Origin: Bacteroidota bacterium
Lineage (GTDB): Bacteria > Bacteroidota > Bacteroidia > Chitinophagales > Saprospiraceae
Direction of reading: 5' to 3'
Assembly: GCA_029572935.1 (NCBI GenBank)
Contig: JAKQHM010000002.1
Location: 1 to 64,000 of the forward strand
Length of the DNA: 64,000 nucleotides
In this document: one piece after another, positions 1 to 42,102 of the stretch
How the letters are laid out: each line of letters starts with the position of its first letter
Numbering within the stretch: position 1 is the stretch's first letter
Made by a program: the position numbers and the translations under genes
The notes under the pieces: generated by a model
What the model saw: the letters and a program-made list of their open reading frames with translations, nothing else
Told to the model about the DNA's origin: nothing
Database searches by the model: none

Positions 1-2106
1 GCCGGTGCGTGGATCGCGAACAGTCACCTGAAGCTGTCTTCCGATGTCCTGACGGCCCACCTGGATGCCAGCAACAGTTGGTCTTCTGTCGATGATGGCT
101 TTGGTTACCCAGTCTCTCACTTCAACAGTGTAGCTGTTGTAACATCTGTAAGGTCCACCTTCCAGAACCATGTCCGGATTGATGGTAGCCCAGCAGCTGT
201 CGTCCAGGCTGATCTGAACCAGGTCGTTACAAGCCAGTGCATTGGTAGGATTGGCATATTCGTTTACGCAAACGTCGAATTCACAACGAGCTACGTTACC
301 CTGAGCATCTGTAGCTGAGTAACACAGTCTGGTACAACCGATCGGGAAGAAACATCCCGGACCATAGAAACGAGCATTTGCATTACATGCAACGATCGGA
401 ACCATATTGCCGGAAGCTTCAGCATAAAGCACGTTTCCGGAGTATCCCCATGAAGAACAATGGAATCCACCTCCGAGGTTTGCACCTCCAACGTTGTCCA
501 GAGCAATACCATTTGGAGCAGTAGTAGCTACGTTCATTCTCACACCGGTTCCATAACCAGCTAAATTGTTACAGCTGTTGAACGGAGGCATGATGAATCC
601 GTGGTTTGCACCCGGAGCACCCGCTACGTAGATACCTCTGATCTCACCAGGCTGGAGGGTCAGGAGACCTCTGGTAGAGGTTTCGATTCTCGTACCTGCG
701 CAAGTGACAGTAGTATCGCTCACAGTAGTGGTAACTACAAATGTATCCATATTGGCAGCAGATGGAGCCACGAAACCGTTTACACGGATCTGGTTAGCTG
801 CAGAAGTAGCACCCAAAGTCCAGAGGGTTTTCGGTGAGGAAGGTCCGTTCGGACAGGATCCGGGACCACCAATGGCACCTGCCCAACCTGTTTTCCAGGA
901 AGTATTTGCTGCAGATTTAAACCAAAACTCGTAACGTCCATCGGTAGAAGGAGTTCCTGTAGAGGACATAAACCAGGCATTCCAACCCTGAATGTTTACA
1001 GGAGCGGCTGACTGGTTCTGGATGTCAAACATGTAACCCCAGGAAATACCAGATACAGAAGAGAAGTTGAGGGAAGTACCACAACCTACGGATCTTTGCT
1101 GAGCACCAAACATGGTACCAGGAACCGGACAGTTGTCCATAGCCATAAAGGCAGGAGCGTCCCAGGAAACTTCGCAGACACCAGGACCTGCATTCAAAGT
1201 CACTACACCTCCTTTAGGACATGCAGGATTGAATACTGGAGGCTCGGTGTCCTGAACGTTGATCGGAAGAACGGCACGAACCAGCTGACAGTTGGAAGCA
1301 ACAGAGCGGAACACCCTGAAATATCTTCCTACCTGAGCAGAGAATGTATCGATACCGGCACCAACGGTCATGTTGCTGTCAATACAGGCAACGAACGGAC
1401 CACCAGCCTCAAAACGGAATACTTCAACTCCCTCTCCGAAGGATGAAGCACCCCATGCAGCTGAAGGTCTGATGAAGTTGTTTCCTGTCTGGTTGAATGA
1501 ACCGATCGGAATGTTAAAGAACTGAGTGTTGTTCTGAGCAGATGTGTAGTTTGGTGTGAGGGCCGTATAAGGACCTGCTGCAGCTGTGGGGCTGATCTGC
1601 AACTGATAAGAAGCTGCAAATGAACCGGCACAGTTGTTGGTAACTGCCAAACGGATCTGAGGAACCAAAGGAATGGTTGTACAAGCACCAGCCGGGATAG
1701 AAGTGGGCGGAGGTGTTGCAGAGACAGGAATACCCGCCATAGTAGTTGTGGAGGCTATACCGCAACCAAAGCAAGTGTTACAACCTTCTGCAAAGGTACA
1801 ACCTGCCGTACTTCTGTCAACAGATGGACCTCTGGTTACCATTTGGATCTGCGCGCAACCGGGGCTGTTGAGAGGTGGCTTGGGAACAGTCACAAGCGCT
1901 CTACAGGACCCTGGTAACAGGCCGATCGTGATTGCAGGCAAAGTGTCATTTGTGTTGACACCGCCCGAGATCGTTTCACCGACAAAGAAGCAGGTTGTGG
2001 ACTGCGGCAAAGTCTGTGAAAACGAAACACCCCAGGAGATGCAACACGCCAAAAGGAGTGCCGATCTCAGGAGTGACATCGGATTAGTTAAACTTTTAAA
2101 TTTCAT
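1..2106 (-). CDS. HYR-type surface protein, C-terminus beyond window
   Basis: The reading frame is open for exactly 702 codons from the ATG at 2106 to the window edge, so the C-terminus is missing. The N-terminus has a Lys/Arg-rich start and a hydrophobic stretch (LLRSALLLACC) ending in SFSQ, a probable signal peptide. About residues 30-280 are rich in Cys, Thr and Pro. From about residue 286 a segment starting DTEPPVFNPACP matches the opening of HYR (hyalin repeat) domains. A later segment with CYSATDAQGNVARCEF has the closing pattern of such a domain. This is typical of very large adhesin-like T9SS cargo in Saprospiraceae, but the sorting domain would lie outside the window. It follows the small secreted gene at 2146-2601 by 39 nt and is probably co-transcribed. 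The exact role is unknown; adhesion or cell-surface scaffolding is inference. Confidence 0.8.
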   Translation of the reverse strand, partial: MKFKSLTNPMSLLRSALLLACCISWGVSFSQTLPQSTTCFFVGETISGGVNTNDTLPAITIGLLPGSCRALVTVPKPPLNSPGCAQIQMVTRGPSVDRSTAGCTFAEGCNTCFGCGIASTTTMAGIPVSATPPPTSIPAGACTTIPLVPQIRLAVTNNCAGSFAASYQLQISPTAAAGPYTALTPNYTSAQNNTQFFNIPIGSFNQTGNNFIRPSAAWGASSFGEGVEVFRFEAGGPFVACIDSNMTVGAGIDTFSAQVGRYFRVFRSVASNCQLVRAVLPINVQDTEPPVFNPACPKGGVVTLNAGPGVCEVSWDAPAFMAMDNCPVPGTMFGAQQRSVGCGTSLNFSSVSGISWGYMFDIQNQSAAPVNIQGWNAWFMSSTGTPSTDGRYEFWFKSAANTSWKTGWAGAIGGPGSCPNGPSSPKTLWTLGATSAANQIRVNGFVAPSAANMDTFVVTTTVSDTTVTCAGTRIETSTRGLLTLQPGEIRGIYVAGAPGANHGFIMPPFNSCNNLAGYGTGVRMNVATTAPNGIALDNVGGANLGGGFHCSSWGYSGNVLYAEASGNMVPIVACNANARFYGPGCFFPIGCTRLCYSATDAQGNVARCEFDVCVNEYANPTNALACNDLVQISLDDSCWATINPDMVLEGGPYRCYNSYTVEVRDWVTKAIIDRRPTVAGIQVGRQDIGRQLQVTVRDPRTG

Positions 2107-2145
2107 GAGATGTATTGAGTTTCAAGTTAGAAAATTGATTCCAGA

Positions 2146-2601
2146 TTAGATTTTGATCTTGTTTACGAGATCCCTGAAATCAGCAGGCCAGTTTCCAGTC
2201 TGAAAACCTTCCAGGTTTACCACCTGCTGAACACCACCTCCTGATCTCGGAGGAGCCAGCATGGGATAAATGGAGGTAACGCACTGCTCAACAGACATGT
2301 CGGGATATCCGAGGTAATCCATTAAAGCTTTCACAGCTTCATACCTGACCATCAGCCTGTCGTAAGCAGGATTGCCTACAGGACGCTTGGTAGGATCAGT
2401 ACCATATAACTTGATAGCATCCAAAGTTGCTTCAAGTTCTTGGTTAACAATGTCCAAGACCTCGGCGCGAGGCTTGAACTGGGGCAAAGGACCGGAAGTT
2501 TGGGCATTGACCTGAATGTCGCTGGAAAACAACATCAGACAGAAGACCCAAAAACCCAATCCCGGAAGAAGTCGAGACAGAATAAATTTCGTCTTTTTCA
2601 T
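2146..2601 (-). CDS. Small secreted protein of unknown function
   Basis: A 151-residue protein with an N-terminal signal peptide: KKTK, then a hydrophobic run to about residue 33, ending in VNAQ. The mature part is about 118 residues, has no cysteine outside the leader, and contains a helical-looking segment (about 45-100) followed by a Pro/Gly-rich linker (LAPPRSGGG). I do not recognise the family. It lies immediately upstream of the large HYR-type gene on the same strand with a 39-nt gap, which suggests one transcript and perhaps a partner role for the surface protein. That role is inference from position only. The start is the only ATG before the signal peptide. Confidence 0.75.
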   Translation of the reverse strand: MKKTKFILSRLLPGLGFWVFCLMLFSSDIQVNAQTSGPLPQFKPRAEVLDIVNQELEATLDAIKLYGTDPTKRPVGNPAYDRLMVRYEAVKALMDYLGYPDMSVEQCVTSIYPMLAPPRSGGGVQQVVNLEGFQTGNWPADFRDLVNKIKI

Positions 2602-3547
2602 GAGATTTAGTTTTGGTTAAATATTTAAGTTTTTAAAATTTTTACAAAATCGGTTTAGACACCCACTTTTGGGTGTTTAGGAATAAATATAACATGCCCT
2701 GTTTTGGGCACACCAAAAAAGAGCAATTTGAGCCTCCTGAACAGTAAGTTCAGAAAGTTCAAAAAAGCATACAAGAGTCAGTAAGTCAATTGTTTAAAAC
2801 AACCAACGTACTAAGCCTTGAAGGCTTTGAGAAAGGAAATGACTGATTTTCTTATGGATTTGCTTCGCCAGAGAAGAATCGAGTCATGAGTTTGGTTAAT
2901 AGGCGCACGTCCGCACCTAATTCGGTCCAAAGATATTTACAGTGACCCATATCAGGACGATATAATTTAAATATTTATTTCTTTTATTCATATATAATTG
3001 AAATACAATTATTTAATTTATTTTTTTTCAAAAAAATCCGTCCTGAATTATTAAAATCCACACCCTGTACTAACAAAGAAATAAATGAACCCCATGTTAA
3101 AACTAAAATCGAAGTATCTTTTAAAAAAATAAGACACATTATTCAAAATACTAATTTTTACTTATTTGAAATAAATTAATATACAGATTCAAAATTGATG
3201 CAATATAAGTAAGACCGCTCCAAAACCAGGCTTTATTATCCGCATTTAAGAAATATCGCACTTGATGAATCCCATGACTAAAACAGCTATAATCTTTAAA
3301 ATCAAATCGATTGAAAACCACACAGTCAATTGATAGACGATTCAATTATAACATCAATTTAGAGCCTGATTGGGAAAGAACTGGAGTCAGAGCTTTTGTT
3401 TTAAATTTTGAAAAGCCGATTAAGTCTGCCCCACTTATAATACATTACTTTTCTACAATCAAGAAGCCCTTGGCCTTTAACCAAAATGGACGCCTACCCT
3501 ATTCAGCTTGGGTGAATTGTGGATACTCTGCGAGATCGGATGTTCTT
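2602..3547. other. AT-rich intergenic region, no recognised gene
   Basis: About 950 nt between the leftward secreted-protein gene and the 3' end of the VCBS lipoprotein gene. It holds two small hairpins near the left side (2655-2710), an odd 15-base palindrome (AAGCCTTGAAGGCTT, 2813-2827), and long A/T runs around 2960-3180. Short open frames occur on both strands (for example 3151-3345 minus), but they have no start context, no family resemblance and a base composition like the surrounding non-coding DNA. I see no tRNA or insertion-sequence end. Confidence 0.5.
2655..2710 (-). promoter_or_regulatory. Two hairpins upstream of secreted protein/HYR genes
   Basis: ACACCCA (2659-2665) and TGGGTGT (2670-2676) form a perfect 7-bp stem with a 4-nt loop, extendable with A-T and G-T pairs. 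TGCCC (2695-2699) and GGGCA (2706-2710) form a second, shorter one. A TATATTTA sequence between them (minus strand, about 2683-2690) is one base from the Bacteroidota -7 box. The region may therefore be the promoter and leader of the two genes starting at 2601 and 2106. Function is inferred. Confidence 0.3.
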
Positions 3548-6500
3548 TTACCTGCCTACGGTAATCAACTGTGCCTTGGCATTGTTGTTGGCCACCAGGA
3601 TCAGGGGCTTACCGGCATAAGTCTTAGATACAAGCGCGATATTCTTGACGTCTCCATCTATGTACAAGCCGCTTGCATCGGGACTGACCTCATCAAACCA
3701 TTTGCTGCTGTTGCCTTTAAGGAACAGCCCCACCCCTGCATCCGCATTGCCTGTTTCGACTTCAGACACCTTGAGGTTTCCACCCAGAACCAGATCTTTG
3801 ATGCCGTCTTTGTCAAAATCCTCATAAAGGATGCCAGTAACCGGAGCGATCTGGGCTCTGTTGGGAAGACGTTTAATTTCAAATGTACCACCCTGGTTCA
3901 CTAAAACCACACTTTCAAATAAATTCGCCTGGTAGTGCAGGGCTCCCTTCAGTAAATCCCCGTATACTTCTTCCAGGGTCGCTTTGCCATATTCATCATA
4001 GGTTTTAAATTTATCCAGGATCATCCCCATTTGCTCGCTGGAGCACTGACGCCCTCTGACCGGGAAGAGGCGTCCGTCATTTTTGTATTGACCCAATATG
4101 ATATCAGATTTTTTGTTTTTGTCAAAATCACCTGCATAGACCTGGAATGGGCGATTCATATTGGTTTTGTACTTATAGTTCAGGCCCAGATTCCCAACAA
4201 TAAAATCAGTATCCTTGTCTCCATCGATGTCTGCTGCAACAATTCTATTCCACCATCCGGTAGTTTGATTGAGCTTCAAAGCATCTGCTTTGTTGATGAG
4301 TTTACCTTGCTCCTGGACGAATGGGGTAATATTCATCCATTCCCCAACCACCATGAGGTCCCATTTTCCATCCTGATTAAGATCCGTCCAGACTGCGTCA
4401 GTCACCATACCTACCTGCGCCAAACCTTCAGACCACCTCGATGTCGCATCGGTAAATACTCCTTTATTGTTTTCCAATAAATAGGACTGACCCGGGAAAG
4501 GATATCTGCCCGGAGAGACTCTTCCGCCAACAAAAAGATCCGTATCTCCATCACCGTCAAAATCTGCAGGTACCACACAGGATCCACTTCCGGAAAGGAC
4601 AGGTAGAGTATTCACTTTTTTAAACTTACCCGTTCCATCGTTTTCATATAACCTGTCCTGATACATGGCCGGATCATCCCATTCATTTCCTCCTGAAACC
4701 ACATATAGATCCAAGTCGCCATCCTCGTCCTTATCAAAAAACAAGGCTCCAAGGTCTTCGTATTTCTTGTCTGCCTCAAAATCAGAAGTACCCTCCAGGG
4801 TCCCAAATAAACCGGTCGGATTCTGGAAATAGATCTGACCAGCCTGACCCGCTGCGCCTCCAATATAAAAGTCTTCAGCACCATCCCCGTCTGCATCTCC
4901 AATAGCTATGGCCGGACCAAACTGAGACATTTTGTGAGGAAGCAAAATTTGACGTTTATGGTAATCGTCATAATCATTCTCATGATGCGTGAATTCAAAA
5001 CCCATCTTTTCTGTCTCATCAGTAAACAAAGCCTTAGTTGAATTTTGCGCATTTCTATCAGATGGTTGGGCGTCTTTGTAATTAAGTTTAATAATCTTAT
5101 CAGCGCTTACATTTTCCAGGACTTGTTGTTTTCCATCAGACCAAATCACCTTCAATTGATCAATCTTTGAAGATTCACCTAAGCCTATGTACAAATCATC
5201 ATCCACTGATGCCTGGTAACCACGGGTGGTCAACAATTCATAAGTCTGCTCTGTGCCAGATGTCTTGATATATACTTTTGCATTGATCTTTCTGGCATAG
5301 ACGGGCGTCTCCAATACTATTTTCAAAAAGTGGTTAGGGCTTCTTTGGATTGCATTATTCTTATACACCAATGCTTTATCGTCGATGTTGTTTACGACTA
5401 GATCGGGATCCCCATCGTTGTCCAGGTCACCATATGCTGCCCCGGAAGAGAAACCTGCAAAATTCAATTGTGCCTCGGCGGACTTATCAATAAAAGTAAG
5501 ATCTCCTTTATTTTCATAGTAAAAATTTGGAATTTTAGTCGCCCCCATAGCCACGTTTTGCTGTCGCAAAAATCTTAGTACAGATTCTGTACTTTCTCCT
5601 TTTTTCGACATTTCATTGGCATGATGGATCATGGGTTTGAAAAAATCCTTATCGAGAAAATCACGGTAATACCCGTTCGAAATAAAGATATCCTTTTTGC
5701 CATCCAGATTAAAATCCGTCAGCAATACAGACCAACTCCAGTCCGTATTGTGAATTCCACTCATTTGTCCGATCTCGCTGAAATTCTTGTGCCCGTTGTT
5801 CAGTTGGAGCATATTCCTCATGTATGAGTAATGATATCCCAGATTGTAATAACGCCAGAATCTTTCGATGTCCATGGATGCCATGTTGACCTTCTCGCGG
5901 TAATTATCCTCTGCCAACATATCCAATACGCAAAAGTCGATCAGTCCATCGTTGTTTATATCTGCGGCATCTATCCCCATCGAACTGTGACTGGTGTGTT
6001 TGACCGCTGTATAGATAATGTTTTGAAATTTGCCATTGCCCAGATTCTCAAAGAAATAATCCGGCTGTTCGTGGTCCACAGAAATGTAAATATCTGGCAA
6101 ACCATCTCCCGTCAAATCCGAAGTGGTAATGCCCAGGGTCCAGCCGTAGGTACGAAGTCCTGATTCATCCGTTATGTCTGTAAACTTACCATTGCCCTCA
6201 TTACGATAAAGATGATTGGAAGTAGCATGAGGTGGATTTTTCCAATTATCGTAATGCAAACCTTCTACTGCCATCCGATCGTTGGGATGGTTTCCTACAA
6301 CCAAATCCAAATCCCCGTCGAGATCCATATCGAAGAAGGAAGCCGTGATGCTGAAAGCATTATCATTAATGCCCATCTCTGCAGCCTTTTCTGTGAAAGT
6401 AAGATCACCGTTGTTCATAAACATCAGGTTCTCCCTACCCTTTGGATTTTCAACCGAAAAAGCCCTGCAGACGTAGATATCCTTATATCCGTTGTCATCC

Positions 6501-6904
6501 AGATCCGCTACGGCGACACCTGTACACCAACCTCCATATTTTGCAATACCTGATTTTTCCGTAATGTCTTCAAATTTAAAATCACCCTTGTTCAAGTACA
6601 ATCTGGTTGGAACCAGATTGCCCGTAAGTAAAATATCTGAGAGTCCATCGCTGTTAACATCCACCAATGCAACGCCCCCTCCGTTAAAAATATTGATATA
6701 TTCCAAAGGATTCGGAAGGTTGGCAGGATCCAATTTGTTTTCAAAATCCACACCGGACTGCTCCGAACCAATTAATTCAAAGGCAGGAAGATCCGGCTTG
6801 ATACCAGAACGGCCGCCGTCTCCGGCGCAAGCAGAAATGAAAATCAGCCCGAAAGCTAAAATTCGCAAATTGAAAACTGATATGATTCGATCCTTCATTT
6901 TCAT
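3548..6904 (-). CDS. VCBS/ASPIC-UnbV repeat lipoprotein (copy 1)
   Basis: A 1,118-residue predicted lipoprotein; the lipobox cysteine sits in FISAC about 25 residues from the start. It contains many FG-GAP/VCBS blades with Ca-binding DxDxDG motifs ([33 protein letters not shown]), folding as beta-propellers. An ASPIC/UnbV segment at about residues 538-600 includes TTRGYQAS and ends in [10 protein letters not shown] second propeller set fills the C-terminal half. The family usually sits on the outer membrane of Bacteroidota, often near SusC/SusD genes, with no established biochemical role. The frame can be read from a GTG at 6913, but the ATG at 6904 is preferred. It is the last gene of a four-gene leftward cluster and lies 46 nt downstream of its paralogue (6951-10286). 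Both copies share the motif RGxQCSSEQ in the C-terminal half. Confidence 0.87.
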
Positions 6905-6950
6905 ATTTGACACATCGTTGATGATGAACTAATAATTATACTTAATAAAA

Positions 6951-9900
6951 TCAGTATATATTTTGAAAGTAGTACAAAGCATTGTTGTTGTTGGCCACGA
7001 GAATGCCATATTTTCCGTCCACCTTGATTGATTTCAGATCCTTGACATCATATGGTACAAAAAAACCAGATTCCAAAGGTGAAATAGGATAGCTCATGAT
7101 ACCATCTTTTGTTCCTCTGAAAACCATTCCTACACTTGCGTCTGCTCGGGTGGTCTCAATTTCAGAATTGAACATGTTTCCAGCAAAAACAAGGTCCTTG
7201 TTTCCATCCCCGGTAAAATCTTCGCAAACAAAAGACTGAATGGTCGAAAATTGTGCCAGCGGAATAAAAGGAATGGCTTTGAATTTTCCTCCTTCATTTT
7301 GAAAAATCATGCTTTCAAACATGTAGGCTTTGTATTGAAGTCCCTGATCCAGTCCTTCCCCATAGATGTCCTTGACCGTGGCATTGGCAAATGAATTGTA
7401 ATTGGGGAATTTTGATCCGATCTCTGGAACCTGTTCTGATGAACACTGCTTACCACGAACCGGTACCAGGTCGCCTCCATTGTATTTTGCCAGAACGATA
7501 TCAAAGGTCCCGTTCTTGTCATAGTCATCGCAATATACCATAAAGGGTTTGTCCGGACTGGCATGGAACTTATAGTTCAGTCCCAGATTTCCTCCTAACA
7601 GGTCCATGTCGCCATCGTGATCAAAATCAACAGACATAATGGTATTCCACCATCCCTCGGTCTGGGTCAATCCGTACTGATCCGAATTAGATTTAGTCAG
7701 TACACCCTTGTTATTGAGATAAAAAGTAAGTGGCATCCACTCCCCCACCAGAACCAAATCCTGCTGCTGATCGGAATTCAGGTCTATCAGGGCTGCTCCT
7801 GTAACCATGCCTATGCCCTTCAGTTCCGGCGCCTTTTGTTCCGTCACATCGGTAAAGACTCCTGAACCATTGTTTTCAAAATAATAGGATCTCGGCGCAT
7901 AGGGATATTTATCCGGGATCACACGGCCTCCGCGAATGATATCCTGGTCTCCGTCCCCATCAAAATCATAGGCCAAAACCATGGATCCACTGGACTCTGT
8001 GCGGGGAATGGAGCTAATATTTCTTTGAAAAATACCCTTCCCGTTATTCAGATACAACCGGTCCTGATATACCAAATGACCATACTCCATTTCCGTTCCT
8101 CCGGAAACCACGTACAGATCCTTGTCTCCATCTCCGTCCGCATCAAAGAATGCACTTTGCATGTCTTCGTAATCCTTGTCGCGGTCCAATGAATTTTGTT
8201 TCTGCAAAACAAATTTGCCACTGTCTGCCTGGAAATATATCGCACCACTCTTTTTTCTGGGTCCTCCTACGAAAAAGTCCTCCTTGCCATCTCCATTGAC
8301 ATCTGCGACAGAAATAAAAGGACCCAGTCGACTCATTCTTTGAGGAAGCAAAACCTGATTCTTGTAATCGTCAAATAGATTTTCGACGTGATGATATATG
8401 GGATCAATTTTATCCTCTGTGCTTTCAGCGAATATATTTCTCAATTTGGGAGGATTCGGATACCTTTTCTGACCGGTATTGTAATCGACATTCAGGACCT
8501 GGTTGACAGGTACATTGGTGAGTTCTACAAAAGTGAAATCAGGCCATTGAACGGTAATCTTGTCCACTTTCTGGATTTGATCCAAACCAAAATGTGCGAT
8601 GGGCTCACTGGCAGAGAGATATCCCCTTGTGCTGCGCAATTGGACAAACTGAGCTTTTCCTTCATAGTAAATTGTCACTTTGGCACCTTCTCCGGTTGTA
8701 TTCATAGGCGCACCTTTACAGGCAATCCTTAAATAGTTCCTTTCTCCATCAATTTTATTCTCATACAGAAATGCAGGATCATCTACGTTGTTAACCACCA
8801 GATCCAGGTCACCATCGTTGTCCAGATCCCCCAGAGCCGCTCCATTAGAAAAACTCTGATCTTCAATCCCCCAATCCTTCATCATCTTTTTGAAGGTCAG
8901 ATCACCTTGGTTTTTATAAACATAATTGACCAGCTTTACTGAGGGAAGTATGCCTAAAACAGTTTCAACACTATCAATGACGTTATTGTGATCCTTCAGA
9001 TATTTTCTCATTTTGTCGTTGCTGTCCCGGTCGTACACATCCCTCCTGTATCCATTGGTGACATACAGATCCTTGAATCCATCCTGATCGAGGTCAGCCA
9101 GCAAGGCGGCCCAAGACCAATCGGTTTTATCCACACCAGACAACTGGGAAATATCGGAGAAAAACCCGTTCCCATTGTTGAATTGAAGTACATTGTGCAT
9201 GTATTGCATGTGAAAACCCAGGTAAGCCAACTGCTCAAAAAATTCAGGCTGCATATTGGGCATGGTGGTCTTGGATCTTTTGTAATCATCCGGGCGCATC
9301 TCTACGGTAATGATCTCTTCTTTCAGGTCATTGTTGATGTCTCCAAAATCCACTCCCATAGAATAGTAGGGCACATGGTTGGTCAGCTGCTTCACCATGT
9401 TTTTGAATTTTCCATCTCCGTAGTTGATGTACATGTAATCATTCTCGATGAAATCATTTGCAATATAAAGATCCTGAAAGCCATCGCCGTTCAGGTCGCC
9501 CGCGGTGCAACTCAATCCATAACCAAAATTAGGATAAATATCTGCCTGCAGACTGACATCCTCAAAAGTACCATTGCCATTGTTGCGATAAAGTTTATCT
9601 GTGACCAAAGGGTCATAAACCTTATTTTGGATAAAATTTTTCTTTACCGAATCGATGTAATTCTCATCAAGCGCCCAGGTCTCCGGTCTGTTGGTCAGAT
9701 AGAGATCCAAATCCCCATCGTAATCGTAATCAAAAAAACAGGCAGCAATGGAATAACCCGGATCAGCCAGACCATATTTTGCTGCTTCCTCTGTGAAGGT
9801 CATATTTTTCTGGTTAATGTACAGCAGGTTGGAATTGGAATCCGGAATATTCAAGTATCCACCACGGGTTACATATATATCCATGAACCCATCGCAATTG

Positions 9901-10286
9901 ATATCCACGATGGTCACCCCGCTTCTCCATCCGCGATTTTTGGAAATTCCGGCAGACTCCGAAATATCTTCAAATTTCATTCCGCCCTTATTTTTGTAAA
10001 GTCTGTCAGAAACCTGGTTACCCACAAAATATATATCCTGAAGGCCATCGTTGTCAAAATCCGCAATACCCACTCCCGCTCCATTGTAGATGTAGTTGAA
10101 AGTATATATATGTTCCTTTGGTGTCTCTGTGATGATGTTATTGAAGTGTATACCCGAATATTCAGGATCAACTTTTGAGAAAAGTTTGCCTCCAGAATCT
10201 AAACTGGCACTTTTCTTACAGGAGCTAAGTATGGTAAGAGAACAAAGAAAAAAGACAACAAAAAAAACATTATTATTCAAACGCAT
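6951..10286 (-). CDS. VCBS/ASPIC-UnbV repeat lipoprotein (copy 2)
   Basis: An 1,111-residue paralogue of the neighbouring 3548-6904 product, with the same architecture. A lipoprotein signal (LTILSSCKK) is followed by an N-terminal VCBS propeller with repeated DxDxDG loops (DFDNDG, DYDYDGDLD, DLDQDG). An ASPIC/UnbV segment lies at about residues 532-590 (RSTRGYLS). The C-terminal half has more VCBS repeats, the conserved GNLGLNYK stretch, and the RGxQCSSEQ motif. It is predicted to be exposed on the cell surface; carbohydrate or protein binding is the usual guess for the family but is not demonstrated. It starts 25 nt after the stop of the small lipoprotein 10312-10719, which supports one transcript. 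No SusC/SusD pair is present in the window, unlike many loci of this family. Confidence 0.87.
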   Translation of the reverse strand: MRLNNNVFFVVFFLCSLTILSSCKKSASLDSGGKLFSKVDPEYSGIHFNNIITETPKEHIYTFNYIYNGAGVGIADFDNDGLQDIYFVGNQVSDRLYKNKGGMKFEDISESAGISKNRGWRSGVTIVDINCDGFMDIYVTRGGYLNIPDSNSNLLYINQKNMTFTEEAAKYGLADPGYSIAACFFDYDYDGDLDLYLTNRPETWALDENYIDSVKKNFIQNKVYDPLVTDKLYRNNGNGTFEDVSLQADIYPNFGYGLSCTAGDLNGDGFQDLYIANDFIENDYMYINYGDGKFKNMVKQLTNHVPYYSMGVDFGDINNDLKEEIITVEMRPDDYKRSKTTMPNMQPEFFEQLAYLGFHMQYMHNVLQFNNGNGFFSDISQLSGVDKTDWSWAALLADLDQDGFKDLYVTNGYRRDVYDRDSNDKMRKYLKDHNNVIDSVETVLGILPSVKLVNYVYKNQGDLTFKKMMKDWGIEDQSFSNGAALGDLDNDGDLDLVVNNVDDPAFLYENKIDGERNYLRIACKGAPMNTTGEGAKVTIYYEGKAQFVQLRSTRGYLSASEPIAHFGLDQIQKVDKITVQWPDFTFVELTNVPVNQVLNVDYNTGQKRYPNPPKLRNIFAESTEDKIDPIYHHVENLFDDYKNQVLLPQRMSRLGPFISVADVNGDGKEDFFVGGPRKKSGAIYFQADSGKFVLQKQNSLDRDKDYEDMQSAFFDADGDGDKDLYVVSGGTEMEYGHLVYQDRLYLNNGKGIFQRNISSIPRTESSGSMVLAYDFDGDGDQDIIRGGRVIPDKYPYAPRSYYFENNGSGVFTDVTEQKAPELKGIGMVTGAALIDLNSDQQQDLVLVGEWMPLTFYLNNKGVLTKSNSDQYGLTQTEGWWNTIMSVDFDHDGDMDLLGGNLGLNYKFHASPDKPFMVYCDDYDKNGTFDIVLAKYNGGDLVPVRGKQCSSEQVPEIGSKFPNYNSFANATVKDIYGEGLDQGLQYKAYMFESMIFQNEGGKFKAIPFIPLAQFSTIQSFVCEDFTGDGNKDLVFAGNMFNSEIETTRADASVGMVFRGTKDGIMSYPISPLESGFFVPYDVKDLKSIKVDGKYGILVANNNNALYYFQNIY

Positions 10287-10311
10287 CAGATTGAATTTAT
10301 AGGATTTATCA

Positions 10312-10719
10312 TTACATGGATATAAACCTCATCATAGCCATTATGGACCTGATCTCATCACTCATTTCCATAACGACGGCTTCCACGACCACATCATTTT
10401 CATTTACGTACATTTGCATAAATTTGGGTTCCGGACCTTTTGAATAATAATCCTTATCAACCACATTGCCCTTTTCATCCTTACAAACAAAATTAAAATC
10501 GATTTGACCCTTCTGGCCCATTTCCTTCATTTCAATTACACTCAGTTTTCTCAAACCTTTGGGTTGGTAGGCCCCTGGACGCGATGCAACCATAAATCGA
10601 GGATATCGACTAGATACCTCATTGCCTTCATTATTACTTTTTTCAGTAGAATTATCGTTCTTGCATGAAATCATGAAAGAAATAAAAATCAAAGAGAATA
10701 ATATTATTAAATTTTTCAT
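10312..10719 (-). CDS. Small lipoprotein, tandem paralogue B
   Basis: A 135-residue predicted lipoprotein (signal peptide with lipobox MISC at about residue 19, then a Ser/Asn/Glu-rich linker). The mature domain of about 85 residues resembles that of the upstream gene product: both have GxYxPxGLRK, then SVxEM, and later a FMQMY block followed by VxEMxDE/D-type residues. I do not recognise the family. It is the second gene of the 11166-to-3548 cluster, 21 nt after paralogue A and 25 nt before a VCBS lipoprotein. Co-expression with the large surface lipoproteins suggests an accessory outer-membrane role (inference). Confidence 0.75.
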   Translation of the reverse strand: MKNLIILFSLIFISFMISCKNDNSTEKSNNEGNEVSSRYPRFMVASRPGAYQPKGLRKLSVIEMKEMGQKGQIDFNFVCKDEKGNVVDKDYYSKGPEPKFMQMYVNENDVVVEAVVMEMSDEIRSIMAMMRFISM

Positions 10720-10740
10720 ATTCTTAGGAATTGAATAAAA

Positions 10741-11166
10741 TCACTTGGAGTCTCTCATTTTCTGCAGTAAATCATCAGTCATTTCGAAAACTACTGTTTT
10801 CGCAACTCTACCGCTATCGTCGGCATACATTTGCATAAAAAGTTTCTTCTGAGAATTAAAAAATGAATCAATAGGATATGGATTACCGAGATGGTCCGTT
10901 AATGGCAATTTGGACACGTCATTCCCGGCCCGTCCATAACGGTACATTTCCTTTACTGACATTTTTCTCAAACCCTCGGGAACGTAAACCCCCTCGGGAG
11001 TTGGGATTAAAAAAATTGCAGGATCGTATAGTAATGAATCCTCTTCAGGAGGAGCCGGATTATACTCACCGGAAGAACCAAAAGAAGTAGAACCTGTGCC
11101 GTCCGATTTGCATGAGACAGCAATAATGGTAAGAAGATGTGCCAGGATAATGATCGTATTTTTCAT
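10741..11166 (-). CDS. Small lipoprotein, tandem paralogue A
   Basis: A 141-residue predicted lipoprotein. The frame extends upstream to 11229, but the ATG at 11166 gives a proper signal peptide (KNTIIILAHLLTIIAVSC) and fits a promoter-like box at 11277-11284, so it is chosen. After a Gly/Ser/Pro-rich linker the mature domain carries GVYVPEGLRK, SVKEM, and KLFMQMYADD with VVFEMTDD near the C-terminus. These motifs are shared with the next gene (10312-10719), so the two are tandem duplicates. The family is not recognised. It is the first gene of a four-gene leftward cluster ending in two VCBS lipoproteins. Confidence 0.75.
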   Translation of the reverse strand: MKNTIIILAHLLTIIAVSCKSDGTGSTSFGSSGEYNPAPPEEDSLLYDPAIFLIPTPEGVYVPEGLRKMSVKEMYRYGRAGNDVSKLPLTDHLGNPYPIDSFFNSQKKLFMQMYADDSGRVAKTVVFEMTDDLLQKMRDSK

Positions 11167-11567
11167 ATTGAGATTTTTACGCCAACCAGATCCAGAAAAA
11201 GTCGGGAGACGCAGCAAACTGGCATACAAACCACTTAATCCTGTAAACCCCCAAATCTGCTCGGTTAGCGGGGATGCAAAATTAACACAAAAGCGATGAA
11301 AGACCCGATTAATCTTGGAGAAGCCGCAATTGAAAAAAAAATAACAATGAAATTAAAATAATGTATTAAAAATTGATTTACTTAGACTTAGGGAAAATAA
11401 GCCTTCATTTCTTTGTATGGAGTATAATATTTTAAAAAAAGATTAACAATAGGCTGAGGCAAAACAGGGAGACGGTCCCCCTCGCCGCTTGCCAAAATGA
11501 AGTCAGAACTATCTGGTCTGAGTGGCGAAATAACTCGTTCATCGCGGTCCGGATAAATACAAAATCC
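11167..11567. other. Intergenic region with leftward promoter
   Basis: About 400 nt between the coiled-coil lipoprotein gene (ends 11568) and the lipoprotein cluster (starts 11166). It is AT-rich at 11330-11450. A -7-like box for the cluster lies at 11277-11284. The rest holds no convincing gene, RNA or repeat; I saw no terminator with a clear U-tract. Confidence 0.5.
11277..11284 (-). promoter_or_regulatory. Putative promoter of VCBS lipoprotein cluster
   Basis: The minus strand reads TAATTTTG, an exact match to the Bacteroidota -7 box TAnnTTTG, about 110 nt upstream of the ATG at 11166. No perfect TTTG -33 element is present at the usual distance. It would make the ORF extension to 11229 part of the transcribed leader, so it does not by itself fix the start. 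Confidence 0.4.
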
Positions 11568-12110
11568 TCAGTTACCACTTTCCATTTTGATGATTTCCTG
11601 ATTGGCTTTCAATGCAGCCATCAATGCACCTTCACTCCTGCGGTTCCACTCTTCTACTTTGGGTTCCAGCTCAGGAACTTTGAGACTGAGCGAATCCAGT
11701 TTATCCAAAGCACCCGGCAAAGCATTACCTTGGGACACACTCTCTTCAATACTTTTGAGCAACTGGGATCCAGCTTTCCATTGATTATGGTACTCAGCTA
11801 CCTGCTCTTTCATTCCTTTCAATCCATTGAACTGGGCGTCAAAAGCAATCGTCATTTCCTTCAGTCTTTCCTGATTGGCAGGGCTGAGTGCACCTGATTT
11901 ATCCTTGACTTGCTGGACAGCCATGTTCATCAGTTCAATGCTGTGGATATTCTGATCCAGTTTGGAGACGGCTTCATCCAGTTTTCTGGTGGCCTCGCTC
12001 CACTCATATACCACCGAATCCATTTGTTCTTTTAACTTTTTGTTGCCTCCACAAGCCATGCCCAGAAAGAGCACAAATGCAATAACGATAGAATTTTTCA
12101 TAAGATTCAT
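11568..12110 (-). CDS. Coiled-coil lipoprotein of unknown function
   Basis: A 180-residue predicted lipoprotein: a short hydrophobic signal (IVIAFVLFLGMAC) with cysteine at about residue 20, then GGNKK. The remainder is rich in Leu, Glu, Lys and Gln with heptad-like spacing (KLDEAVSKLDQNIHS; MKEQVAEYHNQW), so it is probably a helical coiled coil in the periplasm or on the inner face of the outer membrane. It has no catalytic motif. Two ATGs (12110 and 12101) are possible; the first is used. An inverted repeat over the -7 box lies 16-35 nt upstream. The family is not recognised. Confidence 0.75.
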   Translation of the reverse strand: MNLMKNSIVIAFVLFLGMACGGNKKLKEQMDSVVYEWSEATRKLDEAVSKLDQNIHSIELMNMAVQQVKDKSGALSPANQERLKEMTIAFDAQFNGLKGMKEQVAEYHNQWKAGSQLLKSIEESVSQGNALPGALDKLDSLSLKVPELEPKVEEWNRRSEGALMAALKANQEIIKMESGN

Positions 12111-15975: not shown

Positions 15976-16488
15976 TTATTTTTGGTTGAGAATCCGGATC
16001 AATTCCGGAGCAAGGTCATACGTGGGATCCTGGTGGATCAGGCCGAAGGAGCTGTCGAAAACAAACAAATAGCCATGAGACCTTGCATAATCATTGATGG
16101 TCTTCTGTATTTTTTCAAGCAATGGAGTGAACAACTCCTTTCTTTTATTTTCCAAAGATTCAGTGGCATTGGTCTGATATTTTCCAACCGCATCCTGCTC
16201 CATTTCCAGATTTTCCTCCATTTCGCGCTTCTTTTGGGCAGTCAGCTTTCCGGTTGCGACTTCTGATTTGTAGACCTCCATATTCAACTGGAGTCTGGAA
16301 ATCATTTTATCGCCGGTCTCCTTAAGTGCCTTTTCGTAGCGAGACAACTGAGCAATCAGATCCTTGGTTTCGTTTAAAGAGTCAACCAAAGAGGCAGAAT
16401 TCACATGTCCGTATTTCTGAGCCTGGAGGGCATAAGCTACCAGACTAAAAAACAGGATGCCAAAATAATTCCTTACTGATCCCGTCAT
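15976..16488 (-). CDS. OmpH/Skp family periplasmic chaperone
   Basis: A 170-residue secreted protein. The signal peptide ends in YALQAQ, followed by KYGHVNS, the typical short strand at the start of OmpH/Skp proteins. A long charged helical segment (about 35-125, rich in Lys, Glu and Gln) matches the Skp tentacles, and the C-terminal strand GYLFVFDSS closes the body domain. Skp trimers hold unfolded outer-membrane proteins in the periplasm. It begins 12 nt after the tatA stop, so the two are probably co-transcribed. Family call is good; equivalence to E. coli Skp is by fold only. Confidence 0.85.
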   Translation of the reverse strand: MTGSVRNYFGILFFSLVAYALQAQKYGHVNSASLVDSLNETKDLIAQLSRYEKALKETGDKMISRLQLNMEVYKSEVATGKLTAQKKREMEENLEMEQDAVGKYQTNATESLENKRKELFTPLLEKIQKTINDYARSHGYLFVFDSSFGLIHQDPTYDLAPELIRILNQK

Positions 16489-38008: not shown

Positions 38009-38016
38009 TATCTTTG
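38009..38016 (+). promoter_or_regulatory. Promoter-like box overlapping gene start
   Basis: TATCTTTG is an exact TAnnTTTG match ending 3 nt before the ATG at 38020. It either drives a leaderless transcript or is not used. Confidence 0.3.
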
Positions 38017-38019
38017 AAA

Positions 38020-41000
38020 ATGAATTTGTGGAAAGAGTCGGTTTCTGTGGTACTGTTCCTGGTATCCATCAGCGGGTCTTTTGCTCAAAACCACAGTCTC
38101 TGCGGGCCAAGCCCAGTCCCCTTGTCAAACGATTGTGCCGGAGCCTGCGTAGTGTGCGATCTGAACGGAGTGACTGCCCGTACAGAAAACTCGACTCAGG
38201 GACAGTCGCCTCCAGGATATTGTACCATGGTCGTGCACACCATGCAATGGCTGGCCTTCGTGGCCGGCTCGACCAATTTGTCCATCAATGTGTCTGTTTC
38301 CGGCTGCACCCAGCCCAATGGGGTGGAAATGGGCATTTATGCCTCGATGGACTGCAGCAGCTTCAACCTGGTTTCCAATTGCAACACCAATATGTACGAC
38401 AACCAGACCTGGCCGTTTACCACGACCACGCCCCTTAAACCCGGTTGTGTATACTACCTCGTCTGGGATGGCAATGGGCCCAATTCCTGCAATGTTTCCA
38501 TGTCGGTGACGGCCGGAAGTGCCAAGGCACCCGTCCCCAATACCAATGACAAGATCACAGGCAGAACCCTGGTATGTCCCGGGGAAACGATCCCTTACCA
38601 GATCAATGAAATTTTAGGTGCCTGCGAATACGAATGGCGCGTGGTCAACGGAACCATTGTATCTGAAAATGGAAATAAAGTCGAAGTACAATGGGATACA
38701 CCCGGGCCCGGTCAGATCTGTGTGAAGGGTAAAAATATCTGCCATCAAGGCAATGAAGTTTGTCTGGATGTCCTGGTCGGTTCTGATTCTCCCCCGACTG
38801 ATCTTGGTCCCTTTTATGTTTGTCCGGGCCAAATCCACCGGATTGGCAACCAGACCTTCTCGCCGGGCTTGACCAGCTTGCAGTTTAAAAACAAATTTGG
38901 TTGCGACAGTCTGGTCAATGTAACGGTTGAAGAATTTATTATTGAAGAAGGAAAGTTGGATACCACCATCTGCTGGCCCGGCACGCTGAGCCTGGGCAAT
39001 CAGATCTACGACAAATCAGGACTGTACGTGTTCCAGACCCAATCGAAAGTTCCTCCCAATTGTGACTCTTTGGTTTTTATAGACCTCAAGATCCATAAAC
39101 TATCTCCCTTGCTGAAAAAATCAGGCGATATCAATTGCAGGGACAGTCTGGTGACCCTTTCTATGGATTCATCCGCCACGGATTTCAAAGACATCCTGGG
39201 ATATGTCTGGGTATCGGAAAAGGGAGACACCATAGCCTTTAATGCAAATGCCATTGTGCGCAACGCAGGAGCCTACCATCTGGCGATTATTCCCAAAGAC
39301 AGCAGTGCTTTGGCCTGCCCTACCCGATTTGACATCACCGTGACCGGTTCCCGCAAGATTCCGGAGTTGGTCCTGGATTCCGCATTGCGCATTTGTTTCG
39401 GAGACTCTGTTTTATTTTATAACATCCCGATTACGGATGTGCAGCAATCCGGCGCAAACATCAGTTTTCACAGTGCTCTTCCCTGCGATTCATCCAATAT
39501 TATTTCCGATACCGTTATTTTTCCTGATCGCGACACCATCCTGTATGCCAAAGCCACAAATGGCAGCTGCTCCGATGAACTGGCCCTGCCCATTGAAGTT
39601 AGACCCAGAACCATCCTGAGCGCACCGGACATCAAAATCTGCGCAGGAGATACTTTGTGGTGGAAGGACATCCCCATTCAATCTTCCGGACCGATGCCCC
39701 AAACATGGTCCTTTCATACCTGCCCGGACACAAATTGTTTGACAGGACAGAACTATTGGATTGCCTGGATCGACACTAGTTTTTGGTTATATCCTATCGG
39801 AGTGCCCTGTCCGGAATGGTCAGCGGTCAAGATCCAAGTAACTCCCTTGCCCCCATCAGATTTCACGATAGACCGAAGGATGTTCTGCACCGGCGACACC
39901 CTTGCCATCCGGTGGCATCCCGATCCAATGGCCATGCGTTATTTCGTCACAAGACAAACAGAGTTTTTGCTGCCCGCCTCCGGAGGTTTTGATACCGTAC
40001 AGAATCAGGCAGGTATTTTTTCCTTTTGCATTCGGGCAGAAAAGGAAAGATGTCAATCCATCCGATGTGACTCCGTTACTTTTCAGGATGCTTTGCCTTT
40101 GCCATCCGGTCACTGCATTTCCACTGACAGCAGTGTTCTTTTCCATTGGAATGAAATTCCAGGTTCAGAATTTGAAATAGTAAATATCAGCGGCCAGACA
40201 CAAGGTATTTCTATAACCGATACGACTTATCTTTTCAACGGACTGGCCAGAGGAGAGGAGGCAAAGATCCGCGTCATCAGAAAAGACAGTATCTGCGGCG
40301 ACCAGTCGATCGAACTAACATGCAAGGCGATTGACTGTCCCGTGATCAAAATTTTAAACCCTCCGGAAATCAGAGTTTGTCTGGATGCTCAGACGGACAC
40401 CTTCAGGATTGCAGCCACTTTAGATTCAGGTACCGGAAATGGCAGCTGGCTTTTCAGCGGAGCTGGAATAACAGACAGCACACTGGGAATATTTGATCCA
40501 CGGAAGGCAGGTCGGGGCGTACACACCATTCAAATTGAATACAAGGAAAGTTCTTGTGTCTTTCGCAATCAAATTCTGATCAAAGTGCGGGAAAATCCTT
40601 TGGCTTCTTTTGAACTGGATAGTATCATTTGTCAGGATTCCTTTTTGCTGGTCCGGTTTACAGGAAGAAAAGAGGATACTACGATCAATCAATGGCAATC
40701 GGATGGAGGATTTATCCGTCAAAAAGCTAAGGATTTGTTTGAGATGAAGTGGGACAAACCCGGGAAAAAGAAAATAAAACTGAGGCTACCGGAAGAATTT
40801 TGTCAGGACGAACAGGAACGCGAAACAGAAGTTTTGGCTCCTCTTGAAAGACCTGAGATCAGTTGCGTTTCGACTGATTCGACGGTAACTTTTTTTTGGA
40901 AAAAAAATCCACGGGCCCTGAACTATCTGGTCCTTCAGGATCGGGGACCGGCAGGTTTTAAAAACAGCGATACCAGTTTTCAGATTCGCATATCCAAACC

Positions 41001-42102
41001 CGGAGATACCGCGTCCATCCGGTTGCGGATGTTTGACAGTGGACCTTGTGCCGATGTCGAATCAGATGCTCTACAGTGTATTTCACCAGCCTGCCCTCCA
41101 CGGAATCTTTTGAAAGATACCACGCTGAGTTATTGCGCCCATCAAACCGCTTTTGTTTTTCTGGGAAAGTACCTTTCCATCCCTGATTCCGGATACCATT
41201 TCACTGGACCACAGGTACAGGGCGATACGGTGCATTTTGATAAAATAAGTGAAGGATCTCATTTGTATCGTCTCTTCCTATCAAAAGGTAATTGTTCTTA
41301 CCAGGACAGCATCCTTCTGATCAAGAAGCCTCTGCCCAAAATCGAGCAGATATCCATTACACCCATCCCGTGCCCTGAAACAGACAGCACGGGTGCGATC
41401 GAAGTCCTTAGTGTTTCGGGAGGGCAGTCTCCATTGCTATATTCTATTGACGGCTCCGCTTATGGAGGTTCAGGTCAGTTTGATCAGCTTACGGCTGGTC
41501 AACATAGGATCTCCGTGCTCGATTCCAATGGTTGCAGGACCGACACCCTGGTTTTTCTTGCACCACCTGATCGCGTACAAATAGACCTGGGAATGGACCT
41601 TGAGGTGGATCGAGGCAGCCTGGTCGAAATCAATTCCCAAATCACTGGCAAATACACACAGATCATATGGACGGGTTACAGCGGTCTGAATTGCGACAGC
41701 TGTACTAAAGTCAGTTTCAGGACTGAAAAAGACCTGATCCTGGTAGCTCAGGTTTCCAATGAATATGGATGTACGGATGAAGATGAAATCAAAATACTCA
41801 TCAGAGACAAGCGAATCTTTGCACCCAGTTCGTTTTCCCCCAATGGGGATGGTGTAAACGACGGCTTTATTTTGTACGGACCCGATCATACCGTTTTGAT
41901 CGACCGGATGGCCATTTATGACAGATGGGGTGCTCAGGTTTTCCTGGGTCAGAACCTGCGCCTCAATGATCCCCAAAACGGATGGAACGGGGAATTCCGT
42001 GGACAAAAACTATTGCCCGGAGTGTATGTGTACCAAGCAAAAGTGGTCTTTGAGGATGGCAGTACCACTCTGGTAAGCGGGGAGATCACTTTAGTCCGAT
42101 AA
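38020..42102 (+). CDS. Large T9SS type B surface protein
   Basis: A 1,360-residue secreted protein. The signal peptide (VVLFLVSISGSFAQ) is followed by a Cys-rich N-terminal domain (about 25-170), then several PKD/Ig-like repeats through about residue 1,260. Many of these contain CxGD and CxGE turns (RICFGDSV, KICAGDTL). The C-terminal type B sorting domain has the hallmark FSPNGDGVNDGF, then YDRWGAQVF, and LLPGVYVYQ, which direct export by the type IX system (gliding motility-associated C-terminal family). Probable role: adhesion or surface matrix (inference). A TTG 6 nt upstream is in frame, but the ATG at 38020 is preferred. Confidence 0.9.
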   Translation: MNLWKESVSVVLFLVSISGSFAQNHSLCGPSPVPLSNDCAGACVVCDLNGVTARTENSTQGQSPPGYCTMVVHTMQWLAFVAGSTNLSINVSVSGCTQPNGVEMGIYASMDCSSFNLVSNCNTNMYDNQTWPFTTTTPLKPGCVYYLVWDGNGPNSCNVSMSVTAGSAKAPVPNTNDKITGRTLVCPGETIPYQINEILGACEYEWRVVNGTIVSENGNKVEVQWDTPGPGQICVKGKNICHQGNEVCLDVLVGSDSPPTDLGPFYVCPGQIHRIGNQTFSPGLTSLQFKNKFGCDSLVNVTVEEFIIEEGKLDTTICWPGTLSLGNQIYDKSGLYVFQTQSKVPPNCDSLVFIDLKIHKLSPLLKKSGDINCRDSLVTLSMDSSATDFKDILGYVWVSEKGDTIAFNANAIVRNAGAYHLAIIPKDSSALACPTRFDITVTGSRKIPELVLDSALRICFGDSVLFYNIPITDVQQSGANISFHSALPCDSSNIISDTVIFPDRDTILYAKATNGSCSDELALPIEVRPRTILSAPDIKICAGDTLWWKDIPIQSSGPMPQTWSFHTCPDTNCLTGQNYWIAWIDTSFWLYPIGVPCPEWSAVKIQVTPLPPSDFTIDRRMFCTGDTLAIRWHPDPMAMRYFVTRQTEFLLPASGGFDTVQNQAGIFSFCIRAEKERCQSIRCDSVTFQDALPLPSGHCISTDSSVLFHWNEIPGSEFEIVNISGQTQGISITDTTYLFNGLARGEEAKIRVIRKDSICGDQSIELTCKAIDCPVIKILNPPEIRVCLDAQTDTFRIAATLDSGTGNGSWLFSGAGITDSTLGIFDPRKAGRGVHTIQIEYKESSCVFRNQILIKVRENPLASFELDSIICQDSFLLVRFTGRKEDTTINQWQSDGGFIRQKAKDLFEMKWDKPGKKKIKLRLPEEFCQDEQERETEVLAPLERPEISCVSTDSTVTFFWKKNPRALNYLVLQDRGPAGFKNSDTSFQIRISKPGDTASIRLRMFDSGPCADVESDALQCISPACPPRNLLKDTTLSYCAHQTAFVFLGKYLSIPDSGYHFTGPQVQGDTVHFDKISEGSHLYRLFLSKGNCSYQDSILLIKKPLPKIEQISITPIPCPETDSTGAIEVLSVSGGQSPLLYSIDGSAYGGSGQFDQLTAGQHRISVLDSNGCRTDTLVFLAPPDRVQIDLGMDLEVDRGSLVEINSQITGKYTQIIWTGYSGLNCDSCTKVSFRTEKDLILVAQVSNEYGCTDEDEIKILIRDKRIFAPSSFSPNGDGVNDGFILYGPDHTVLIDRMAIYDRWGAQVFLGQNLRLNDPQNGWNGEFRGQKLLPGVYVYQAKVVFEDGSTTLVSGEITLVR

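Follow-up and report, generated by a model that had tools for sequence, protein, structure and literature searches.

What kind of system is encoded by a row of four lipoprotein genes that has no SusD gene nearby? The genes run leftward near the start of a 64,000-nucleotide (nt) stretch of a Saprospiraceae genome (GenBank assembly GCA_029572935.1, contig JAKQHM010000002.1, positions 1 to 64,000), referred to below as the window, and encode two small (s1, s2) and two very large (VCBS-A, VCBS-B) predicted lipoproteins. We consider that the four proteins are probably parts of an unnamed surface complex rather than of a sugar-uptake system. A narrower reading is tentative, and we place it somewhat short of an even chance: a Sus-independent cell-surface complex linked to the type IX secretion system (T9SS), in which the lipoproteins would hold giant secreted proteins. 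Taken together, the locus combines domains already known with one lipoprotein domain that has no name, is conserved in one genus, and is a modest but concrete lead. The four genes are as follows.

10741..11166, minus strand: s1, small lipoprotein of 141 amino acids (aa); ATG start, with the frame opening at TTG 11229
10312..10719, minus strand: s2, small lipoprotein of 135 aa; open reading frame (ORF) homologous to s1
6951..10286, minus strand: VCBS-A, lipoprotein of 1,111 aa; predicted CRTAC1-like propeller and ASPIC/UnbV domain, then a predicted second propeller; 11 calcium motifs
3548..6904, minus strand: VCBS-B, lipoprotein of 1,118 aa; ATG start (GTG at 6913); Pfam domains of VCBS-A, separate clade; 11 calcium-type motifs

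By the ORF coordinates, the gaps in the series s1, s2, VCBS-A and VCBS-B are 21, 25 and 46 nt, exactly as a preliminary description of this DNA had given them, and the gene order is small-small-large-large. All four products begin with a hydrophobic stretch, as judged by eye, and carry a lipobox-like cysteine (AVSC, MISC, LSSC and ISAC, found by pattern and by eye), where the pattern is what we take to be the lipobox motif. Because relatives with the same motif occupy the equivalent place in six other genomes, s1 and s2 are, on this comparison, conserved coding genes and not chance ORFs.

Linkage of the small and large genes in the genus

The genus sample consisted of nine genomes, including the one under study (G000). 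An orthologue of VCBS-A was found in seven of the nine, G000 among them, with 62-66% identity in the other six, and in all seven (7/9 of the genus) the small gene or genes lie directly beside it. Two small genes are present in G000, G001 and G003, a single divergently oriented one in G005, G007 and G008, and one fused double in G002, where both small domains form a 250-aa protein. VCBS-B follows VCBS-A in six genomes; in G003 the contig ends at this point and VCBS-B is found on a short contig of its own. G004 and G006 have no small gene and no VCBS-A orthologue at that identity level.

The outer flank differs between genomes, with putative sodB- and cutC-like genes in four and a PorP/SprF gene in three, and therefore the contact between the small gene and VCBS-A, as read from these loci, has outlived a rearrangement. 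Two subgroups can be told apart by strand relation together with outer flank. As the direction of the small gene is not conserved (divergent from the VCBS genes in 3/7 genomes), co-transcription is not a general rule.

Outside the genus, we read 46 small-domain loci, and none of them (0/46) shows a VCBS gene in the fetched flanks, which range from 58 nt to about 10 kb, so that the absence is weak where the flank is short. The small-VCBS coupling is thus genus-level, as far as these loci tell. A conserved neighbourhood of small and VCBS genes had been set beforehand as a test of the proposed complex; it held for 7/9 genus genomes and failed beyond them. This distribution would also be expected if two unrelated gene sets had been juxtaposed in the ancestor of the genus, the linkage then reflecting common descent and not joint function. 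The confinement to one genus, the lack of VCBS genes at the outside loci and the differing strand relation of the subgroups all fit such an origin. However, the contact survived a change both of the outer flank and of small-gene direction, and the small copies have diverged to 23-46% identity with the small protein P0002 while retaining their position. We regard mere juxtaposition as rather unlikely.

T9SS-type neighbours and the scarcity of SusD

Two further leftward genes follow VCBS-B at the end of the contig.

2146..2601, minus strand: s150, 151 aa; signal-peptide-like start ending in NAQ, no lipobox cysteine seen; relatives adjoin a VCBS cluster across the genus
1..2106, minus strand: first 702 aa of a giant, presumably secreted protein, cut off where the contig ends; it has two full-length homologues of about 2,100 aa that carry HYR and cohesin domains and a probable T9SS type A sorting domain

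One VCBS cluster per genome adjoins s150 and the giant in all eight genomes where the contig continues, G003 giving no view. The adjacency is imperfect in G004, with one gene between, and in G006, where the VCBS gene is divergent. The s150 proteins find one another in leave-one-out profiles (E 4e-7 to 1e-38, the best value coming from the near-identical G005/G007 pair), and an s150 model run over 1,950 ORFs of the collected loci matched only the s150 genes of the genus, copies included. The eight giants tested are homologous, most of them cut; that of G004 was outside the test and was placed by position. The two full-length giants, of 2,106 aa in G007 and 2,103 aa at the contig C19 locus of the genome under study, contain HYR and cohesin domains. 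Their C-termini match the sorting domain TIGR04183 with 27.6 and 34.2 bits, respectively, against an NCBIfam cut-off of 23, and Pfam Por_Secre_tail with 18.7 and 21.8 bits, under the cut-off of 27; the window copy is cut before its C-terminus.

SusD genes are scarce, with 0-2 per genus genome, and 0/9 hits across the nine genomes lie on a contig with a VCBS match; the single SusD gene of the genome under study is on contig C36. The earlier statement that no SusC/SusD genes are nearby is thus borne out for SusD, which is absent from the window contig and from the VCBS contigs of the genus, and no SusC/SusD pair of the kind that marks a Sus-like system was found, SusC itself not having been searched for. 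Sus-like polysaccharide utilisation loci resemble the present cluster in having rows of outer-membrane lipoproteins, and differ from it in that here no genus contig with a VCBS match carries SusD.

These observations bear on a second explanation, in which the VCBS lipoproteins bind nutrients or glycans at the surface and work with a TonB-dependent transporter encoded elsewhere, the small proteins have a minor accessory part, and the T9SS-type neighbours are incidental. Bacteroidota surface lipoproteins often belong to Sus-like systems, according to excerpts of PMC5080379, and many genomes of the order contain VCBS arrays, both of which would suit such a role. Against it stand the absence of SusD from every VCBS contig, bearing in mind that SusC was outside the search and that contigs are often short, and the recurrence of T9SS-type neighbours in 8/8 testable genomes. 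We consider this second explanation unlikely. That one such VCBS cluster lies next to T9SS-type giants throughout the genus points to a role in displaying proteins at the surface, and not in taking up glycans, which can be put to the test.

For the T9SS-linked complex we propose the following arrangement. VCBS-A and VCBS-B would be calcium-stabilised, CRTAC1-like double propellers serving as binding scaffolds for the adjacent giant, and the small proteins, as a stand-alone version of a lipoprotein domain, would act as membrane-anchored adaptors. Jointly, the small and VCBS lipoproteins might hold or stabilise the giant T9SS-secreted surface proteins; in some relatives, a PorP/SprF-anchored type B adhesin with SprB repeats and cohesin could be a further client. 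The genes, their domains, the linkage within the genus, the lack of SusD nearby and the T9SS-type neighbours are observed, whereas surface location, contact between the proteins and their parts as adaptors and scaffolds are what we infer. The preliminary description had suggested an undescribed surface complex, which is plausible, although its likely partners, the T9SS products, were absent from that account.

A helper role in envelope assembly, in which the cluster would help large proteins of the outer membrane and cell surface to fold or to be exported, appears very unlikely. It draws on a lipoprotein in the VCBS cluster of G004 with an FKBP_C match (29.2 bits, cut-off 21.1), and on one in G006 with FKBP_C at 19.7, just under the cut-off, and a weak BamJ match (24.9 bits, cut-off 100). 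The window cluster, however, has no FKBP-type gene, and the VCBS genes of G004 and G006 belong to other clades. The main text of a Flavobacterium BAM (β-barrel assembly machinery) paper (PMC12611786) contains no propeller, VCBS, FKBP or BamJ. The lipoproteins concerned in the VCBS clusters of G004 and G006 lie at L181 9955-11328 and 18132-19073 and at L183 6874-7773; their matches are to FKBP-type isomerases, at moderate or sub-cut-off scores, and, for one in G004, to PAP2, also below the cut-off.

Domains and origin of the four lipoproteins

VCBS-A and VCBS-B share 41% identity over 1,115 columns. UnbV_ASPIC (PF07593) scored 69.9 and 68.1 bits in the pair (cut-off 23.4) and FG-GAP_3 260.2 and 229.7 bits (cut-off 26.9), with FG-GAP also far over its Pfam cut-off in both; on domain content, the two proteins are members of the ASPIC/UnbV-FG-GAP (CRTAC1-like) family. 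An AlphaFold model of VCBS-A, built from an alignment of 25 proteins, reached a mean predicted local distance difference test (pLDDT) score of 85 and a predicted template modelling (pTM) score of 0.84. Its top match in the PDB is murine CRTAC1 (9etn), with a Foldseek E of 3.2e-27 and, by VIA, a Z of 38.7 over 463 residues at a root-mean-square deviation of 2.5; the match was recovered by sequence profile as well (E 2.2e-28). VCBS-A, the one protein of the pair that was modelled, is therefore predicted to have the CRTAC1 fold. In the model, residues 616-1111 form a second propeller, for which the EPTP domain of LGI1 is the best match (Z 31). DxDxDGxxD-type calcium motifs number 11 in each of VCBS-A and VCBS-B. 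The two proteins resemble the CRTAC1/ASPIC-UnbV family in having an FG-GAP propeller followed by the UnbV/ASPIC domain; they differ from it as predicted bacterial lipoproteins with a C-terminal second propeller, at a locus with T9SS-type products. Two tandem integrin-type propellers within one bacterial protein have already been recorded, as excerpts of PMC3192720 indicate.

A VCBS/ASPIC match at E 1e-100 or better was present in 30/40 genomes of the order sample, the genome under study included, and 39/100 matches outside the genus stand in arrays with gaps under 1 kb, in 11/21 genomes. As such matches are common and often arrayed outside the genus, tandem large VCBS genes as such are ordinary. 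A literature search combining VCBS/ASPIC with Sus or T9SS terms, in which subscription journals were mostly out of reach, yielded no paper on such a locus and no function for these lipoproteins in the text it covered. For ASPIC with UnbV, no test of function appeared in the retrieved parts of PMC9957290, where a table of ice-binding proteins labels the domain 'cell adhesion', or of PMC3174227, which has table entries.

The preliminary description had called both pairs tandem duplicates and read the unit as a duplicated small-plus-large couple. s1 and s2 align as homologues (30% identity over 118 aa, E 3e-16), and the identity of the large proteins likewise shows them to be homologous; the large genes are, however, not sisters, and 'tandem duplicates' is valid in the sense of homology only. 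In a tree of 25 of the 36 genus matches, which leaves aside the G005 copies of clades A and B, the G003 VCBS-B and 8 others, clades A and B, of 6 and 5 rows respectively, both have full support. Clade A groups with copies elsewhere (G008 C10, G006 C27, G000 C19, G001 C92 and relatives) before it joins clade B, with a Shimodaira-Hasegawa-like approximate likelihood ratio test (SH-aLRT) value of 99. Duplication of a couple is not supported by this topology or by the order small-small-large-large, and separate, older duplications fit better. In the small-domain tree, the 11 domains of the genus fall on one side (99/97) and the s2 copies are grouped (95/96), while the placement of s1 is not settled.

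The genome under study has a second VCBS pair on C19 (L043 9081-12354), whose second gene is split into frames of 689 and 399 aa by a frameshift or an assembly error. An s150 gene and the 2,103-aa giant come several genes after this pair.

The small domain and its PorP/SprF neighbours

No Pfam or NCBIfam family scored over its cut-off in s1 or s2, in line with the earlier remark that the small family could not be named, and the two NCBIfam matches of P0002 (E 0.04 and 0.057) are far under the cut-offs. The structure model of s2 (pLDDT 81) retrieved nothing from the PDB under E 0.4 with Foldseek and no Z over 2.6 with VIA-align, where weak matches prove nothing either way; a small-domain profile against PDB sequences gave nothing under E 0.3.

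The small domain is nevertheless recurrent. With a profile built on genus members and then on a broader set, we found it in at least 50/398 genomes and at least 27/112 genera of the family, one of the 50 being rejected. A 149-aa hit of G182 (L182), judged by eye to be a signal-peptide match to an unrelated lipoprotein, was dropped before the loci were counted. In the class sample, at least 3/395 genomes match, one being the genome under study and two lying outside the family with weak E-values. These counts are lower bounds, as up to 10 (family) or 11 (class) candidates were scored per genome; G110, found with 21 candidates scored, is missing from both. The 46 loci read outside the genus omit G292:C188, G295:C190 and G351:C161, as well as weaker hits (E 0.001 to 0.01; G577; G175:C98).

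At 44 of the 46 loci the domain forms the N-terminal part of a longer protein (187-359 aa); at the other two (G332 and G075) it stands alone. Behind it, DUF6624 follows in 36 of the 44 long proteins; two others are of thioredoxin type, one has an esterase match, and several are cut or without an assigned domain. A thioredoxin/AhpC-like domain, present in 2/44 proteins, seems to follow the small domain at L111 2068-2988, with a weak domain match here. An N-terminal small lipoprotein module thus appears to occur in several architectures. The N-terminal part of DUF6624 lipoproteins (PF20329) is of the same unnamed domain family as s1 and s2, which share with them this domain only, do not themselves belong to PF20329, and differ in being small proteins without the DUF6624 part that are coupled to VCBS genes in the genus. 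In the literature, DUF6624 is noted, in the excerpts found, as a neighbour in graspetide clusters. As a recurrent unnamed lipoprotein module, the small domain deserves a family entry of its own.

The stand-alone form has a second kind of neighbour. Both stand-alone genes outside the genus are next to PorP/SprF: in G075 the small gene is placed between those for a CHU_C (type B) protein and PorP, with gaps of 0 and 25 nt, and in G332 the small gene precedes PorP by 252 nt, the contig ending upstream so that only PorP is seen. At the 44 loci with long versions, no PorP gene was found in the fetched flanks (Fisher's exact test for 2/2 against 0/44, about 0.001). PF11751 was found in 0/67 PorP-sized neighbours from 38 of the 44 loci, in a search that detected the G075 control and missed that of G332. 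A PorP model found the PorP proteins of G332, G075 and G002 when each was left out singly (E 4e-8, 4e-14 and 3e-8) and one of the three when all were left out, and may therefore overlook divergent PorP genes in the flanks. Por_Secre_tail was present in 2 of 69 proteins of the PorP-sized neighbour set.

Within the genus, the VCBS genes are flanked by PorP/SprF, on the side away from s150 and the giant, in 4/9 genomes (G004, G005, G007 and G008), and this gene is preceded by one for a protein with SprB repeats, cohesin and a type B sorting domain; the domains were read in the G008 copy, and the others are its BLAST relatives. In the other five, the PorP/type B operon is on a different contig. 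According to excerpts of the literature, the anchoring of type B substrates is ascribed to PorP-like barrels, as for PG1035-PorP (PMC9143113), and SprF links the adhesin SprB to the gliding-track lipoprotein GldK (PMC12635249). The present loci resemble such adhesin units in that a stand-alone small gene adjoins PorP/SprF in G005, G007, G008, G075 and G332, and VCBS genes do so in G004, G005, G007 and G008; the window locus differs in lacking PorP/SprF, and no unit of PorP/SprF with a type B sorting-domain protein is present in the window. The portions of the adhesin-unit literature that we consulted name no such small lipoprotein. A bolder proposal is that the small proteins represent a new family of lipoproteins that assist the anchoring of T9SS adhesins, in which the domain of about 90 residues together with PorP/SprF would hold type B adhesins and, in this genus, would have come to work with a calcium-dependent scaffold of double propellers that displays a giant with cohesin, independently of SusCD; we consider this doubtful.

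Several results weigh against the T9SS-linked surface complex. Genomes of the order frequently contain VCBS arrays, including some in which we found no small-domain gene. Not every VCBS locus of the genus has a giant: no giant is seen in 20 kb at the G008 C10 pair, and in the genome under study ABC-type genes separate the C19 pair from its giant. Nor is the PorP link constant: the PorP/type B operon of the same genome is on another contig, C4; the PorP match of G332 (53.6 bits) is under the NCBIfam cut-off of 90.55 and has no Pfam counterpart; the 2/2 pattern comprises two loci and was noticed post hoc; and outside the genus, none of the PorP genes among the matches listed is within 24 kb of a VCBS match, as checked by eye. 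Finally, in Capnocytophaga the consensus signal for surface export is K-(D/E)2 or Q-A-(D/E)2 after the lipoprotein cysteine (PMC5080379, in the passages concerned). The four lipoproteins read CKSD, CKND, CKKS and CAGD, with no exact match to this Capnocytophaga consensus, from which other genera may differ. Because the exact consensus is not matched, the four lipoproteins may face the periplasm.

Scans for regulatory signals were of limited use. Sigma-70-like and terminator-like sites in the window were near shuffle expectation, and the two-part pattern that we take to be the Bacteroidota promoter occurred 6 times, against about 3 in mononucleotide shuffles, with none upstream of s1; a -7-like TAATTTTG at 11284 supports no promoter conclusion. 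Positions 2001-12000 are A+T-rich relative to most of the window (39.5-43% GC per 2 kb), three later 2-kb blocks being equally low. Elsewhere in the window lie a Skp/OmpH-like periplasmic chaperone gene (15976-16488) and genes for three more T9SS-type products, namely a CHU_C/PKD_6 protein of 1,362 aa (38014-42102) and two PA-domain proteins (55651-57513 and 57681-59564) whose Por_Secre_tail matches exceed the cut-off.

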